This document shows, piece by piece, positions 7,170-14,718 of a stretch of 43,217 nucleotides of DNA. Position numbers and translations under genes: made by a program. Source of the stretch: Trueperaceae bacterium (GTDB lineage: Bacteria; Deinococcota; Deinococci; Deinococcales; Trueperaceae); NCBI GenBank assembly GCA_013697735.1, contig JACCWH010000134.1, forward strand, positions 1 through 43,217. Reading direction: 5' to 3'. Under the pieces are notes generated by a model, which worked only from the letters and a program-made list of their open reading frames with translations, did no database searches and was not told where the DNA came from. Positions within the stretch are counted from its first letter, which is position 1; each line of letters begins with the position of its first letter.

Positions 7170-7493
7170 CTACGGGTTGGTAGGGGTGGCGACGACCGCC
7201 GCCACCACGAGGGCGCCCGCGACACCACGGAGCACCTGCCACCACGCGCCGTCGCGATCACCGGCCGCCCGGGCGTCGGCGATCGACACCCACGACGACG
7301 CGAGCACGCCGACGACCGCGAACGGTACCTTCGCCGGGTGCGAGAAGGCGACGGCGACGGCCGCGACCACGAGCACCGCCGCTGAAGCCATGAACCCCAT
7401 CGCGCTGCCGCCCCGCCGGCGGATGATGCTCCACGCCCCGAACGCGTTGAAGGCCGCATAGGCGAGCAACAGCACGCTCGCGAGGGCGGTCAA
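7170..7493 (-). CDS. Small membrane protein of unknown function
   Basis: A 107-residue protein with three or four hydrophobic segments and a central basic turn (IIRRRGGS). The likely start is TTG at 7493, which overlaps the stop of the upstream gene as TTGA, the same 4-nt coupling seen elsewhere in this window with GTGA and ATGA. No upstream ATG or GTG is compatible with such spacing. It has no catalytic motifs. Being coupled to the 7490-8377 gene suggests a joint function, unknown. Confidence 0.6.
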   Translation of the reverse strand: MTALASVLLLAYAAFNAFGAWSIIRRRGGSAMGFMASAAVLVVAAVAVAFSHPAKVPFAVVGVLASSWVSIADARAAGDRDGAWWQVLRGVAGALVVAAVVATPTNP

Positions 7494-8377
7494 GTGGCCG
7501 GACTCGCGGGCGTCGACGCCCGGGCCCACGTCGCGTCGTCGGCCAGGTCGCGCGCGGCGACCACCTCGACGTTCCGCCCCGCCACCTCGCGCACCCGACG
7601 CTCGAGCCACGGCGCGGTGGTGCTCGACGCATCGACCACCAGCCGCACGACGTCGACCTCGCGCTGCCGAGCGAAGCGGCGGGCAGCGCCGACGACCTCG
7701 GCATCGGGGTCGACGAGGTCGGGCGTCACGCGGCGGCCCTCCGCACGCGCCTCCTCCGGGTCGAGGTGGTGCTGGCCGGTGAGCGATCGCGCGCCGGCCC
7801 CCGCGAGCGCGACACCGCCCTCGGTCAGCCACCACGGTGGGCCGACGAGCGCGACCCGCGGACCCTCGGTGTCGGCCGCAGACCGCGCCGGGCCATGGCC
7901 GTGGCTCCCCCCGGGGCGTCGCCACGGTGTTTCGAGCTCGCGGCGGCGACGCTCCCAGGCACGCCGTACGGTCCCTGCGTCGCGGTTCACGCGCATCAGC
8001 ACCGGCATCGCCGCCGCCGCGACGAGCGGCCCAGGTTCGACCGGCACGCGCAGCACACCGGGCCCACCGGGCAGCGCGCGAGCGACCATCGCCGGCAGGT
8101 CGGCGACCCACGGGTCCTGAGCTGCACCGCGACCCCCGTCACGCGCCGCGATGAGCTCCGGAACCACGATCAGATCGACCGGGCCGCAGGCGACCGCCGC
8201 CGCCACCGCCAGGCGCGGCGCGAGGGCGAGGGCGGCGCTGGGGCGAGCGTCCTCGAGCGCGAGGGCGACCTCCTCGGGCCCCGGAACCACGACGTCGGCG
8301 CCGAGATCGGCGATCAGGCCCACCCACGGGGGCCCGAAACGTTCCCACAACAACGGAGTCACGAAACCGACGCGCAC
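7490..8377 (-). CDS. Conserved-looking protein of unknown function
   Basis: A 295-residue protein beginning VRVGFVTPLLWERFGPPWVGLIADLG. The N-terminal part alternates beta and alpha, with DLIVVPEL near residue 75, faintly recalling the DUF2229/2-hydroxyacyl-CoA dehydratase-activase-related proteins. That resemblance is weak and no cysteine ligands of those enzymes are present. The middle (about 150-185) is Arg/Gly-rich and probably disordered. The GTG start lies 8 nt behind TAGCAT, fitting leaderless expression. It is transcribed away from, and only 23 bp after, the mrfA stop, followed by the small membrane protein. Confidence 0.5.
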   Translation of the reverse strand: MRVGFVTPLLWERFGPPWVGLIADLGADVVVPGPEEVALALEDARPSAALALAPRLAVAAAVACGPVDLIVVPELIAARDGGRGAAQDPWVADLPAMVARALPGGPGVLRVPVEPGPLVAAAAMPVLMRVNRDAGTVRRAWERRRRELETPWRRPGGSHGHGPARSAADTEGPRVALVGPPWWLTEGGVALAGAGARSLTGQHHLDPEEARAEGRRVTPDLVDPDAEVVGAARRFARQREVDVVRLVVDASSTTAPWLERRVREVAGRNVEVVAARDLADDATWARASTPASPAT

Positions 8378-8399: not shown

Positions 8400-10802
8400 T
8401 CAGGCGAGCCCAACCGGCCGCTTCGGACGGAGCGAGACCACGAGGGTGTCGTGCAGTGCGCGCGCGAGCTCGGCCGCCGAGCGCTTGTCGAGCATCTGGT
8501 TGCCGTTGCCGCACTTGGGCGAGAGCACGCAGCGCGGGCATCCCGAGACGCACGGGCAGCGTTCGAGGAGGTCGCGTGCCGCCGCCAGCCAATCGAGGAA
8601 GACGCTCGCCCCCGCCCGCGCGTACCCGACCCCGCCGGGGTGCCCGTCGTAGATGAACACGAGCGGTCGGCCCGTCGACGGCTCGACCGGGTACGACACA
8701 CCGCCCACGTCGGCGCGCTCGCACAGCACGAACGCCGGGAGGAGCCCGATGAGCGTGTGTTCGAGCGCGTGCATGCCCGCGGCGAGCCGTTCCTGGGCCA
8801 TGTCGCGCGTGCCCATGGAGGGGTCGAACCAGCACGCCTGCGTGTCGTACGACACCTCGGGGAGGTCGAGGGGGCGCTCGTCGAGCACGCCCTCGTGGTG
8901 GTAGCGCTTGCGGACGTAGCTCTCGACGCGCGAGCGCACCCGCACGCGGCCCACCGACACACCCGGCGGCGGCTCGAGCACGACATCGTCAGCGGCGACG
9001 ACCTCGCCGGGCCGCCGGCCGTGCGGCCACGTCTCGAGAACCTCCACGTCGGTCTCCGAGCGCGGCTGGGTGTAGTAGTCCTCGATGTGCGGGAGGAGCG
9101 TCGCCTCCCCCCGCACGAGGTCGAGTCGGGCGCAGACGTACGCCTCCCCCTGATGGAGGTAGACCGCGCCGGGATGGAGGTCGCGCAGCGCCGCGGCGCC
9201 GTCGGTCGTTCCCAGCGTGGCACCGCTACCATCGCGAAGTCGGACGCGATCGGGACCCAACCCGCCACGCATGCGTACGGCACGGTGGGGATAGCGCCGC
9301 ACGCTCCCCCAGCGCGGGGCGCCGTCGACGGGATCCCGCTCCACGCGCCGCAGCCCGGCGAGGGCGTCGAGGTCGATCCAAGGCGCGAGCAGCGCCTCGT
9401 CGGCGCGCAGCGGCCGCTCGGCCGCCGCACAGCAGACGTGGGCGCCGTGCAGCTCCTCGTTCCACGGATCGGCGATGGCGTCCTCCGGCCGCCCGTCGGT
9501 GAGCAGCTCGGGGTACTCGAGGAAGTACGCATCGAGCGGATCGGCCGCCGGGATCCAGATCGCCAACGAGCGACGCCCCTCCCGCCCGGCGCGCCCGGCG
9601 CGCTGCCAGAGCGACGATATCGAGCCGGGGTAGCCCACCATCACCACGGCGTCGACCCCGCCGACGTCGATGCCGAGCTCGAGGGCGCTCGTGGCGACGA
9701 GCACCCTCACGTCGCCGGCGCGGAACGCGGCCGCGATGGCGTGCCGGTCCTCCGCGGTATACCCACCCCGGTACGACGCGACGGTGTGCGACAAGCTGTT
9801 CGGCAGTGCCTGGACCAGGTAGCGCCGAACCAGCTCCGCACCGCGGCGCGAGTTACAGAACACCAGCGTCCGCACTCCGGCGCGCGCGAGATGCGCGCCG
9901 AGGGCGGCCGCCTCGGTATTGGCACTCCGGCGCCGCGTCTCGCCGAACGCCCCGACGCCAGGGGCAGCGGCCGGACGCCAGACCACGAACTCCCGCGCAC
10001 CGCGCGGCGCATCGTCGCCCGTCACCGCCACCGCACGCCGCCCGGTGATCCGCGCCAGGTGCTCCGCCGGGTTGCCGATGGTGGCCGAAGCAGCAACGAT
10101 GCTCGGCTCGGCGCCGAGCGACCGCGCGACGCGGAGGAGCCGCCGCACCACGTTCGCCACGTGGACGCCCAGCACACCGCGGTAGGCATGCACTTCGTCG
10201 ATCACGACCAGCGAGAGGCGCGAGAGGAAGCGGTGCCAGGAGGGTGCGAAGGGGAGGATGCCGTAGTGGAGCATGTCGGGGTTGGTGACGATCACGTCCG
10301 CTCCGGCGCGAGCGCGCAGGCGCTCGGGACGGTCGGTATCGCCGTCGTAGCGAGCCACGCGTCCACCCTCGTAGCCGAGCGCATGGGCCGAGGCGGCGAG
10401 TCGCGTCACCTGATCGCTCGCCAACGCTTTGGTCGGGAAGATCGTGAGCGTCGTACCACCCGAGGCGAGCTCGGCGAGGATCGGGACGTGGAAGACGAGC
10501 GACTTCCCCGAGGCGGTCCCCGACGCGACCACCACGTCGCGGCCGGCCAGCACGTGCGCCAGCGCCTCCGCCTGGTGTCGGTAGGGCGTCACCCCGAGCG
10601 CCGCGAGGACGTCCGCATACGGAGGCGCACCAGGGAGCGTGCGGACGGGTCGCGGGGGGAAGAAGGTGTAGGCCCTGACCTGATCGTGACCGCCGGCCAC
10701 GACGCCGAGCCAGGCGTGATACCCCGCGCCGGGAGCGAGGGGGACGCCGGCGCCGTCCGTCCGCTCGGTCCGGCCGTCGGGGAGATCGTCCGGGGTCGGC
10801 AC
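8400..10802 (-). CDS. mrfA: DEXH-box helicase with C-terminal cysteine domain, MrfA-like
   Basis: An 800-residue superfamily 2 helicase. Its N-terminal lobe has ASGTASGKS (Walker A), NPDMLHYGILP and IDEVHAYRG (DEVH box); the second lobe has VLVATSALELGIDVGGVD and QRAGRAGREG. The C-terminal DUF1998-type domain ends with CPCVSGCPRC...SPKCGN, cysteines at 749, 751, 755, 758 and 764, as in Bacillus MrfA/YprA, which works in repair of mitomycin damage. No MrfB-type exonuclease gene lies nearby. The GTG start at 10802 lies 5 nt behind TAGCAT; a leaderless transcript is likely. An activity in DNA repair is inferred from the family. Confidence 0.88.
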   Translation of the reverse strand: MPTPDDLPDGRTERTDGAGVPLAPGAGYHAWLGVVAGGHDQVRAYTFFPPRPVRTLPGAPPYADVLAALGVTPYRHQAEALAHVLAGRDVVVASGTASGKSLVFHVPILAELASGGTTLTIFPTKALASDQVTRLAASAHALGYEGGRVARYDGDTDRPERLRARAGADVIVTNPDMLHYGILPFAPSWHRFLSRLSLVVIDEVHAYRGVLGVHVANVVRRLLRVARSLGAEPSIVAASATIGNPAEHLARITGRRAVAVTGDDAPRGAREFVVWRPAAAPGVGAFGETRRRSANTEAAALGAHLARAGVRTLVFCNSRRGAELVRRYLVQALPNSLSHTVASYRGGYTAEDRHAIAAAFRAGDVRVLVATSALELGIDVGGVDAVVMVGYPGSISSLWQRAGRAGREGRRSLAIWIPAADPLDAYFLEYPELLTDGRPEDAIADPWNEELHGAHVCCAAAERPLRADEALLAPWIDLDALAGLRRVERDPVDGAPRWGSVRRYPHRAVRMRGGLGPDRVRLRDGSGATLGTTDGAAALRDLHPGAVYLHQGEAYVCARLDLVRGEATLLPHIEDYYTQPRSETDVEVLETWPHGRRPGEVVAADDVVLEPPPGVSVGRVRVRSRVESYVRKRYHHEGVLDERPLDLPEVSYDTQACWFDPSMGTRDMAQERLAAGMHALEHTLIGLLPAFVLCERADVGGVSYPVEPSTGRPLVFIYDGHPGGVGYARAGASVFLDWLAAARDLLERCPCVSGCPRCVLSPKCGNGNQMLDKRSAAELARALHDTLVVSLRPKRPVGLA

Positions 10803-10807
10803 ACGCG

Positions 10808-10817
10808 ATGCTACACT
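10808..10817. promoter_or_regulatory. Overlapping divergent -10 boxes (TAGCAT minus, TACACT plus)
   Basis: ATGCTACACT holds TACACT on the plus strand (10812-10817, 12 nt before the ATG at 10830) and TAGCAT on the minus strand (10813-10808, 5 nt before the GTG at 10802). The two hexamers share two base pairs inside a 27-bp gap. Each promoter's -35 region would lie in the other gene, so simultaneous polymerase binding looks impossible. Confidence 0.6.
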
Positions 10818-10829
10818 CGCCACGTTTCG

Positions 10830-12125
10830 ATGAGCGTCGCCGTCACCGTCGTGCAAGTCCTCGTGGCCATGACCGCGACCGCCCTCGCCGTCGTGGCGCT
10901 CGGCCTCCTCCGTCGCCACGGGACCGGGCTGCGGCGAGCGACGCCGTGGCCCGACGTCGACGTGATCCTCCCCGCCCACGACGAAGAGGCGCGCCTGGGC
11001 GCCGCCCTCGCCTCGCTCCGCGCCCAGGACTACCCCGGTGCGATGACGATCTGGGTCGTCGACGACCGCTCCACCGACGCCACGGCCGACGTGGCGCTCC
11101 GCGCCGCGCGCTCGGACGCGCGCGTCCGCCTGGTGCGTGTGACGCGGCCGTCGAGCCGCAGGTCGCCCAAGGTCAATGCGGTCTGGCACGGCGTGCAGGC
11201 GGGAACGGCGCCGTGGATCGTCACCACCGACGCCGACTGCACGCACCACCCGCGCTGGCTCCGAACGCTGCTCGAGCCGGCGGAGGGGAACGTCGCGCTC
11301 GTGGCCGGTCACGTCGAAACGGCGCGGCCCGGTGGCGCGCGCGGCCTGCTCGGGCGCGTCGAGGCGCTCGACTGGATCTCGCTGATGATCACCGCTCGCT
11401 CGCTCGCGAACGCCGGCCGCAAGGTCGCCGTCAGCGCCAACAACCAGGCCTATGCGCGCGCGGCTTGGCGGGCGGCAGGTGGTTTCGGCGTCGCGGCCCG
11501 AGCGCCCTCGGGCGACGAGGACCTGCTCGTGCAACGCATCGGTCGATTGCCGGGTGCAGACGTGATCTTCGTCGATCACCCGCACGCGCGCGTGCTGACC
11601 CTCCCCATGCCGGGGTGGCACGCCTTCCTCGACCAGCGTCGCCGCTGGGTCTCGCGCTTCCACCACCTCCAGCAGTACCCGGTCGGGTACCTCGTGCCGG
11701 TGGTGACGCTGGGAATCCAGTCCATCGCACTCGCCCTCGCCCTCGTCGCACTACCACTCGTCCCACACGCGCGTGCGCCCGTGCTCTCCGCCTGGGGGAT
11801 CCTCTTGGCGGTCCAGCTCGTCGGCATGCACGTGGGGCTGCACCAACTCGGTCGCCGCGACCTCATGGGCTGGCCCGTGGTCGCCTGGGCGCTCTGTCAC
11901 CCGTTCGTGATCGCGATCGCGGTCACGTGGTCGTTGCTCCGTCCCGGGTCGTGGCGCGCTGGCGCTCGATCGTACCGACGGCGCCTGCTCGCGGTGCGCT
12001 GGCGGCGACGTGGGCGGGCCTGGTGGCGGCGCGCCTGGTGGCGCCATCCGCCGGGGCGCGCCCCGCGGCGCAACCCCGCCACGTGGGCGCCATCGACGAC
12101 GGAACCGAACGACGACCGGTGGTAG
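10830..12125 (+). CDS. Membrane-bound family 2 glycosyltransferase
   Basis: A 431-residue GT2 enzyme with one N-terminal membrane helix (about 3-27), a cytoplasmic GT-A domain carrying VILPAHDEE (45-53), the DAD nucleotide-sugar motif (134-136), GDED (228-231) and QRRRW (269-273), then several membrane helices (about 285-395). The last 35 residues are Arg/Trp-rich. The layout suits transfer of a sugar to a membrane lipid or carotenoid on the cytoplasmic face. It is immediately followed by the SQD1-like gene, so a role in glycolipid formation is plausible. Acceptor and sugar donor cannot be deduced. Confidence 0.85.
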   Translation: MSVAVTVVQVLVAMTATALAVVALGLLRRHGTGLRRATPWPDVDVILPAHDEEARLGAALASLRAQDYPGAMTIWVVDDRSTDATADVALRAARSDARVRLVRVTRPSSRRSPKVNAVWHGVQAGTAPWIVTTDADCTHHPRWLRTLLEPAEGNVALVAGHVETARPGGARGLLGRVEALDWISLMITARSLANAGRKVAVSANNQAYARAAWRAAGGFGVAARAPSGDEDLLVQRIGRLPGADVIFVDHPHARVLTLPMPGWHAFLDQRRRWVSRFHHLQQYPVGYLVPVVTLGIQSIALALALVALPLVPHARAPVLSAWGILLAVQLVGMHVGLHQLGRRDLMGWPVVAWALCHPFVIAIAVTWSLLRPGSWRAGARSYRRRLLAVRWRRRGRAWWRRAWWRHPPGRAPRRNPATWAPSTTEPNDDRW

Positions 12126-12200: not shown

Positions 12201-13466
12201 ATGAACGTGTTCGTACTCGGTGGTGACGGGTTCTGCGGCTGGCCGACCAGCCTTCACCTCAGCGCGCTCGGGCACGACGTCACGATCGTCGACAACTTGT
12301 CGCGGCGAGCGATCGACCTCGAGCTCGAGGTCGGAAGCCTCACGCCGATCACGCCGATCGGCACACGACTGCGCGCCTGGCGTGAGACGAGCGGACGCGA
12401 CATCGCCTTCCACCGCCTCGACGTCGCCCGCGAGTACGACCGCCTCCTGGCGCTCATCGCATCCGAGCGGCCAGACGCGATCGTGCATTTCGCCGAGCAA
12501 CGCGCCGCCCCGTACTCGATGAAGTCGAGCCGGCACAAGCGCTACACGGTCGACAACAACCTCTCGGCCACCCACAACGTGCTCGCCGCCATCGTCGAGA
12601 GCGGCGTCGACGTACACCTCGCCCACCTCGGCACCATGGGCGTCTACGGCTACGGCACGGCCGGGATGAAGATCCCCGAGGGGTACCTCCCCGTTGAGGT
12701 CGTCACCGAAAACGGCGAGCGCGTCCGGCAGGAGATCCTCTACCCCGCCAACCCCGGTTCGATCTATCACATGACCAAGACGCAGGATCAGCTCTTCTTC
12801 GCCTACTACGCCAAGAACGACGAAGTGCGAATCACCGACCTCCACCAGGGGATCGTCTGGGGGACCAACACGCCCGAGACGTCGGCGGACGAGCGCCTCG
12901 TCAATAGGTTCGACTACGACGGCGATTACGGCACGGTGCTGAACCGCTTCCTCATGCAGGCGGCGGTCGGCTACCCGCTCACGGTGCACGGCACCGGCGG
13001 ACAGACGCGCGCCTTCATCCACGTGCGCGATACCGTGCGGTGCATCCAGCTCGCGCTCGAACACCCGCCGACGCGCGGCGAGCGCGTGCGGATCCTCAAC
13101 CAGATGACCGAGACGCACCGCGTGCGCGACCTCGCCGCACTCGTGGCGCGCGCGACGGGGGCCGAGGTGGAGTTCGTCTCGAACCCGCGCAAGGAGGCGG
13201 CCGAGAACGACCTCCACGTCACCAACGACCTCTTCCTCGGGCTCGGACTGCAGCCGACGACGCTCGACGACGGGCTCCTCGCCGAAGTCACCGACGTCGC
13301 GCGCCGCTACGCACACCGAGCCGACCTCGACAAGATCCCGTGCACCAGCACCTGGACGCGCGCCCAGCGTGCGGGCGTCCCCACCGCGACGGCGGAGCGC
13401 CACGGCGCTTCCGAGCTCGAGCGCACGCTCGAGCCGGCCGGCGCAGAGCCCTCGGCCACGGATTGA
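12201..13466 (+). CDS. sqdB: UDP-sulfoquinovose synthase, SQD1/SqdB-like
   Basis: An NAD-dependent short-chain dehydrogenase of 421 residues that converts UDP-glucose plus sulfite into UDP-sulfoquinovose, head-group donor of the sulfolipid SQDG. It follows plant SQD1 closely: Rossmann LGGDGFCG (6-13), HLGTMGVYGYGTAGMKIPEG with T145, and IYHMTKTQDQ with Y189/K193 (YxxxK), then DLHQGIVWGT, RFDYDGDYGTVLNRF and RAFIHVRDTVRCI. The ATG has CGGAGGA upstream. A GTG at 12138 would add 21 residues without matching the family. The SQD2-like gene follows 19 bp later. The C-terminal 25 residues are low-complexity. Confidence 0.92.
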   Translation: MNVFVLGGDGFCGWPTSLHLSALGHDVTIVDNLSRRAIDLELEVGSLTPITPIGTRLRAWRETSGRDIAFHRLDVAREYDRLLALIASERPDAIVHFAEQRAAPYSMKSSRHKRYTVDNNLSATHNVLAAIVESGVDVHLAHLGTMGVYGYGTAGMKIPEGYLPVEVVTENGERVRQEILYPANPGSIYHMTKTQDQLFFAYYAKNDEVRITDLHQGIVWGTNTPETSADERLVNRFDYDGDYGTVLNRFLMQAAVGYPLTVHGTGGQTRAFIHVRDTVRCIQLALEHPPTRGERVRILNQMTETHRVRDLAALVARATGAEVEFVSNPRKEAAENDLHVTNDLFLGLGLQPTTLDDGLLAEVTDVARRYAHRADLDKIPCTSTWTRAQRAGVPTATAERHGASELERTLEPAGAEPSATD

Positions 13467-13485: not shown

Positions 13486-14718
13486 GTGCGGATCGCGATC
13501 TTCACCGAGACGTTCCTGCCCAAGATCGACGGCGTCGTCACGCGCCTCGTCCACACGCTCGATCACCTGAGTGCGCTCGGGCACGAGGCGCTCATTTTCG
13601 CGCCGCACCGACCGCCGCCGTCGTACGGCGCCCACCGCGTGGTGCGGATGCCGGCCGTCCCCTTCAGGCCCTGGTATCCCGAACTCTTCCTCGGCCTCCC
13701 GCGGCCGCGGCTCGGGCGAGAGCTCGACGCCTTCGCGCCCGATCTCGTCCACGTCGTCAACCCGGTGGTCCTCGGCCTCTGGGGCACCATGGTCGCGCGG
13801 CAGCGCAACCTGCCCCTCCTCGCGAGCTTCCATACCGACATCACCCAATACGCGGTCCACCTGCGGCTCTCGTTCCTCGGTCCGCTGTCTCGTCGCTTCT
13901 TGCGCGACGTCCACAACCAGGCGCACGTCAACCTCTGCACCTCCCAGCCGATGGTGAACTCCGCCCGTGGACTCGGCATCCGACGCGTACGCCTATGGCC
14001 GAAAGCCGTCGACACGCAGCGCTTCAGGCCCGAGCACGCGAGCCGCGCCATGCGGCACCGTCTCACCGACGGCAACCCCGATTCGCCCCTCATCCTCTAC
14101 GTCGGCCGCCTCTCCTTCGAGAAGCGGCTCGACTGGCTCTACGCCCCCGTGACGCAACTCGACGGCGTTCGGCTCGCCTTCGTCGGCTCCGGCCCCGCCG
14201 AGGCGGCGCTCAAGGCGCGCTTCGCCGGAACGCGCACGGTCTTCACCGGGTACATGTCGGGTGACGAGCTCGCGAGCGCCTATGCGTCCGCCGACGTCTT
14301 CGCCTTCCCGTCCGACACCGAGACGCTCGGGTTCGGAGCGATGGAATCGATGGCGGCCGGCGTCCCGCCGGTCGGGGCACGCGCCGGGGGACTGCCCGAC
14401 GTGATCGACCATGAGCGCAACGGGCTCCTCTTCACCCCCGGTGACCTCGGCGACCTCACCGACCAACTCCGACGGGTGCTGAGCGACCACGCCCTGCGCG
14501 AACGGCTCGCAGCTCGAGGTCGCAGCGACATGGAAGCGTGCTCGTGGCGCGATGCGACGGAGTCGCTCGTCTCGATGTACCGCCTCGCCCGCGAGGTCCA
14601 CACGCGCTTCGACCCGCCCGCACAGCGTTCGCCGTTCATGATCGAGCGTCCTCGTCAGACCCTCGGCACCACGACCGGACCACGCGGCCCAGGCCAGACG
14701 TCGACGCGGATCCCGTAG
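13486..14718 (+). CDS. sqdX: GT4 glycosyltransferase, sulfoquinovosyltransferase SqdX/SQD2-like
   Basis: A 410-residue GT-B enzyme, predicted to move sulfoquinovose from its UDP donor to diacylglycerol. The N-terminal RIAIFTETFLPKIDGVVTRL and PDLVHVVNPVVLG, and the donor site SDTETLGFGAMESMAAGVP with its E-x7-E pair, fit the SqdX/SQD2 and related GT4 group. The GTG start at 13486 is 19 bp after sqdB with GGAG ahead of it. Functional naming rests partly on the SQD1-like neighbour; alone it could also be a mannosyl- or glucosyl-DAG transferase. The last 21 codons overlap btuD on the other strand. Confidence 0.8.
   Translation: MRIAIFTETFLPKIDGVVTRLVHTLDHLSALGHEALIFAPHRPPPSYGAHRVVRMPAVPFRPWYPELFLGLPRPRLGRELDAFAPDLVHVVNPVVLGLWGTMVARQRNLPLLASFHTDITQYAVHLRLSFLGPLSRRFLRDVHNQAHVNLCTSQPMVNSARGLGIRRVRLWPKAVDTQRFRPEHASRAMRHRLTDGNPDSPLILYVGRLSFEKRLDWLYAPVTQLDGVRLAFVGSGPAEAALKARFAGTRTVFTGYMSGDELASAYASADVFAFPSDTETLGFGAMESMAAGVPPVGARAGGLPDVIDHERNGLLFTPGDLGDLTDQLRRVLSDHALRERLAARGRSDMEACSWRDATESLVSMYRLAREVHTRFDPPAQRSPFMIERPRQTLGTTTGPRGPGQTSTRIP

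Follow-up and report, generated by a model that had tools for sequence, protein, structure and literature searches.

The window analysed here is a 43,217-nt contig (JACCWH010000134.1) of the 3.52-Mb draft genome of a Trueperaceae bacterium (Deinococcota; GCA_013697735.1), with relatives among public records that are Trueperaceae, mostly metagenome assemblies. A gene for an 800-aa YprA/MrfA-like superfamily 2 helicase (8400..10802, minus strand, GTG start; Pfam DEAD, Helicase_C, and MZB) and a gene for a 431-aa family 2 glycosyltransferase (10830..12125, plus strand, ATG start; Pfam Glycos_transf_2) diverge from a gap of 27 bp (10803-10829), which is bounded by the helicase GTG at 10802 and the glycosyltransferase ATG at 10830 and contains ATGCTACACT at 10808-10817. 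We consider it likely that this gap is a compact bidirectional promoter derived from two separate -10 elements, giving a leaderless helicase mRNA and a short-leader glycosyltransferase mRNA with little competition between the two directions.

Overlapping -10 elements on opposite strands were found in ANNNTANNNT (10808-10817). On the plus strand, the hexamer TACACT (10812-10817) is preceded by TGC (10809-10811), forming the extended -10 TGC-TACACT (10809..10817) of the glycosyltransferase, 12 nt before its ATG. On the minus strand, TAGCAT (10808..10813) lies 5 nt before the helicase GTG, and the two hexamers overlap on the TA at 10812-10813. The gap, both hexamers, and their two-base overlap had been described exactly in an earlier note on this DNA, which read them as a pair of divergent promoters with a common -10 core; the position of the hexamers, the genome-wide motif statistics, and the relatives described below all support that reading. 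The shared element lies in a 14-bp core, CGATGCTACACTCG (10806..10819), which is identical at 14 of 14 positions in G001 (L002), the other genome of the same genus (g1). In both g1 genomes (G000 and G001), no TANNNT other than TAGCAT occurs in the 250 bp upstream of the helicase start, and at 5 nt TAGCAT shows the spacing of Deinococcota leaderless genes (TANNNT approximately 5-8 nt before the start). The glycosyltransferase side does not show this spacing, with TACACT 12 nt from the ATG in both genomes, and its promoter is of a short-leader rather than a strictly leaderless kind. Within 10812-10832, the in-frame codon 6 nt from TACACT, where a leaderless gene would start, is GTT in both genomes (GTT TCG ATG; GTT CTG ATG), and thus, the glycosyltransferase either carries a short leader or begins at a non-standard start codon.

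No classical sigma-70 promoter was found by a consensus scan, as no -35 element is present. The best TTGACA-like matches at spacers of 15-19 reached 1/6 on the plus strand and 2/6 on the minus strand, short of a classical -35. The zones in which -35 elements would be expected lie inside or at the opposite genes, as the earlier note had placed them, but no -35-like sequence was found there. A minus-strand candidate, GTGACG (10846-10841), in the conserved 5′ end of the glycosyltransferase gene was rejected, as 27 nt from the -10 is too far. An alternative helicase start (GTG, 10823) was also rejected because TAGCAT, the only TANNNT within 250 bp upstream, lies downstream of it.

To place the two hexamers in the context of their genome, approximately 1.02 Mb was sampled as stretches, and 901 starts were called using a simple gene caller; because this caller mis-extends the helicase across the glycosyltransferase, the start statistics are approximate. 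TANNNT ended 5-8 nt before the start in 132 cases, compared with approximately 16 expected, and the counts at 5, 6, 7, and 8 nt were 31, 68, 19, and 14, respectively, compared with approximately 4 per position further upstream. TAGCAT (11 of 132, joint second commonest) and TACACT (10) were both among the commonest of these leaderless hexamers. The A that makes a reverse TANNNT was carried by 27 of 239 leaderless-type TANNNT sites (11%) in the sampled sequence. At this base rate, the palindrome ANNNTANNNT was rejected as evidence on its own; it is unremarkable by itself, and its placement 5 nt from the helicase GTG exceeds chance. A -10 shared between divergent candidate open reading frames was found at four places in the sample, including the window. 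The other three (L210:6360-6395, L144:2036-2072, and L152:4698-4736) have the shared -10s TACGCTA and TACCCTA (18-bp class) and ACGGTAGACT (23-bp class), and the genes beside them include those of YceI-like, aminotransferase class IV, and TPR proteins. They are less secure because one reading frame scores poorly in two of them.

In most Trueperaceae genomes compared, the helicase and glycosyltransferase genes lie next to each other in divergent orientation. A TANNNT was observed 4-12 nt from an in-frame start in all 32 helicase genes examined, usually as TAGGCT or TAGCCT. In the sister genus g12, the glycosyltransferase has a separate -10 in all seven genomes (TGCTACACT, TGCTAGACT, and similar forms), 30-46 bp from the helicase -10. 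The glycosyltransferase start of g1 and of six of the seven g12 genomes is preceded, at 5-12 nt, by TGC-TANNNT, and the seventh (L222) has TGG-TAGACT. Merged -10 elements were observed only in g1, in both of its genomes; as G001 is a separate assembly, an assembly artefact is unlikely. Outside the identical core, the helicase-side flank is poorly conserved between the two genomes and the glycosyltransferase-side flank moderately conserved. In the helicase tree, g1 branches as the sister of g12, within a group of lineages whose -10 elements are separate, and thus, the shared element is most likely derived.

The sequences of the two genera suggest how the element arose. The helicase side of g12 has the general form CAC-N5-A(G/T)GCTAC (for example, CAC-GCTCG-AGGCTAC-CG), and its glycosyltransferase side reads CCT-GCTAC-ACTCGC, while the fused form in g1 reads CAC-NNNCG-ATGCTAC-ACTCGC. 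The helicase-side form and the glycosyltransferase-side GCTACACTCG of g12 each correspond to one half of the g1 element, and TAGCAT of g1 lies at the site of the helicase -10 in g12. The g1 element, therefore, looks like the left half of a helicase -10 joined at GCTAC to the right half of a glycosyltransferase -10. The ancestral state would have been two separate -10 elements facing away from each other, as in the relatives, and a deletion of approximately 25-45 bp between the GCTAC repeats present in both elements would have left one shared -10. A deletion at GCTAC would preserve the 5-nt helicase spacing, and one further G-to-T change would restore the TG of the extended -10. Judged from the two g1 genomes, loss of the sequence between these short repeats is the simplest and most likely route.

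From the -10 positions, we infer that the housekeeping RNA polymerase would open the single ANNNTANNNT element as a -10 on either strand. Leftward, TAGCAT would place the start at approximately 10801-10802 and give a leaderless helicase mRNA; rightward, TGC-TACACT would place it at approximately 10822-10824, with a leader of approximately 6-8 nt, on a transcript predicted to cover the glycosyltransferase and a probable sulfolipid operon. The predicted starts are approximately 23 bp apart. In both directions, the promoter would be of the -35-less Deinococcota type, probably weak and constitutive. One polymerase at a time would occupy the shared element, and little competition is expected at basal activity.

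This arrangement resembles two described systems. According to Warman et al. (PMC12825309, PMC10268837), prokaryotic bidirectional promoters are defined by overlapping -10 elements and opposite-strand starts 7-25 bp apart, and a 23-bp spacing is a recognised, common class (PMC12825309). The element in the window shares with them a pseudo-symmetrical -10 and opposite-strand starts, here predicted, with a separation inside the defined range, and it lies between two protein-coding genes. It differs in that the starts are predicted from -10 positions, both directions lack a -35, the helicase transcript is expected to be leaderless, and an origin from two separate promoters is readable in relatives. 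Promoters of Deinococcota have a TANNNT next to the start codon, mostly lack a -35, and give leaderless mRNA; in Deinococcus radiodurans, TACACT is the commonest -10 motif, and a -10 motif without a -35 suffices (PMC12340547). The promoter in the window, from the same phylum, shares with these leaderless Deinococcus-Thermus promoters the TANNNT near the start codon, the absence of a -35, and the TACACT form, but one element serves two genes, and the glycosyltransferase -10 is 12 nt from the ATG instead of 6-7 (PMC12340547). No literature linking bidirectional promoters with Deinococcus or leaderless genes was found among the matches listed.

Several observations weigh against a promoter shared in this way. 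The 12-nt spacing of the glycosyltransferase -10 is outside the leaderless peak and was seen at 0 of the 901 starts, g1 is represented by two genomes only, and the fusion requires one substitution (AGGCTA to ATGCTA) besides a simple deletion. The 11% base rate of a reverse TANNNT beside a forward -10 also counts here, as do five relatives (L018, L021, L022, L023, and L025) in which ATGCTA or ATGTTA precedes the glycosyltransferase -10 and the helicase has its own -10; extra reverse transcripts may therefore start at these sites. The last two observations would also fit an alternative in which the glycosyltransferase promoter alone is real. TAGCAT would then have arisen from the self-complementary TA together with an A present by chance, and transcription of the helicase would begin at a promoter within the glycosyltransferase gene or depend on another sigma factor. 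We regard this as unlikely: no second TANNNT lies in the 250 bp preceding the helicase in either g1 genome, the 5-nt spacing of TAGCAT to the GTG is inside the leaderless peak of the genome, every other helicase gene compared has a -10 beside its start, and the g1 hexamer sits where the helicase -10 of g12 sits.

The earlier note had further proposed that the overlap is a regulatory device, in which occupancy in one direction bars the other and couples expression of the helicase and the lipid glycosyltransferase in mutual exclusion, without a regulator. Its premise that only one polymerase can be bound at a time agrees with the steric exclusion accepted for shared -10 sites (PMC12825309), and, in E. 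coli, strongly activating one direction of a bidirectional promoter represses the opposite direction. Exclusion of polymerase binding, however, differs from exclusion of expression. The five E. coli bidirectional promoters that were tested were all transcribed too weakly at basal level for the two directions to compete, and interference was seen only once one direction had been strengthened or activated. The two -35-less leaderless promoters with a -10 motif whose activity was measured in D. radiodurans fell well short of a classical promoter in strength (PMC12340547). Neither side of the element in the window has a -35, no regulator site was recognised within the 27 bp, and the overlap is restricted to a single genus, the two genes remaining paired across the family without it. 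There is also no evident need for exclusion between the two products. Given the low basal activity of the five E. coli promoters, the weakness of the two promoters measured in D. radiodurans, and the conservation of the pair without the overlap, regulatory coupling of the two genes is unlikely, and its use as an exclusion device is very improbable.

The neighbouring genes bear on what the two transcripts would encode. The Pfam matches of the helicase (PF00270, PF00271, and PF09369) cover a superfamily 2 core and the MZB/DUF1998 zinc domain that define the family, and residues 45-759 matched YprA/MrfA of Bacillus subtilis (PDB 6znp) at an E value of 1.4e-116. The protein is thus similar to MrfA/YprA in its near full-length match and MZB domain. 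It differs in that no MrfB-like neighbour was identified: the minus-strand open reading frame at 7170-8111, downstream of the helicase, had no match in NCBIfam, and it was the sole frame scanned, the neighbourhood otherwise not having been searched for an exonuclease. Homology and neighbourhood suggest a role in DNA repair; some members of the YprA/MrfA family function in defence systems. The family 2 glycosyltransferase had weak HpnB/HpnI-like NCBIfam matches below cut-off and is probably a membrane-lipid glycosyltransferase. Downstream of it, in a probable operon, are a UDP-sulfoquinovose synthase-like (SQD1) gene (12201..13466, plus strand; NF041015, E value of 6e-97, under the curated cut-off of the model) and a family 4 glycosyltransferase gene (13486..14718, plus strand; Pfam Glyco_trans_1_4 and Glyco_transf_4). 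In many relatives, the SQD1-like gene adjoins the family 2 glycosyltransferase, and the family 4 gene also lies 3′ of it. By the same kind of evidence, the three genes point to sulfo- or glycolipid synthesis. In part of the sister genus (L032-L035, L116, L118, and L119), both glycosyltransferases are retained and the SQD1-like gene had no match; the sulfolipid gene seems to be variably present within that genus.

The shared element is a known type of promoter, and what deserves attention is how it evolved. Bidirectional promoters have a reported wide distribution, but the way in which one arises can rarely be seen; in this case, what was probably the ancestral arrangement is still found in the sister genus, and the merged form is a few tens of bases shorter. 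The case argues against inferring regulatory exclusion from every -10 overlap. We tentatively propose, as a possibility that may well prove wrong, that two divergent -10 elements became one in a single genus when the DNA between GCTAC repeats was deleted and that the Trueperaceae form a natural series, with -10 offsets of 4, 30, and approximately 45 bp, for determining when divergent promoters interfere. The locus offers a small test case in which genome compaction would have produced a shared promoter, and its phylum is one in which a -10 can be enough for transcription.
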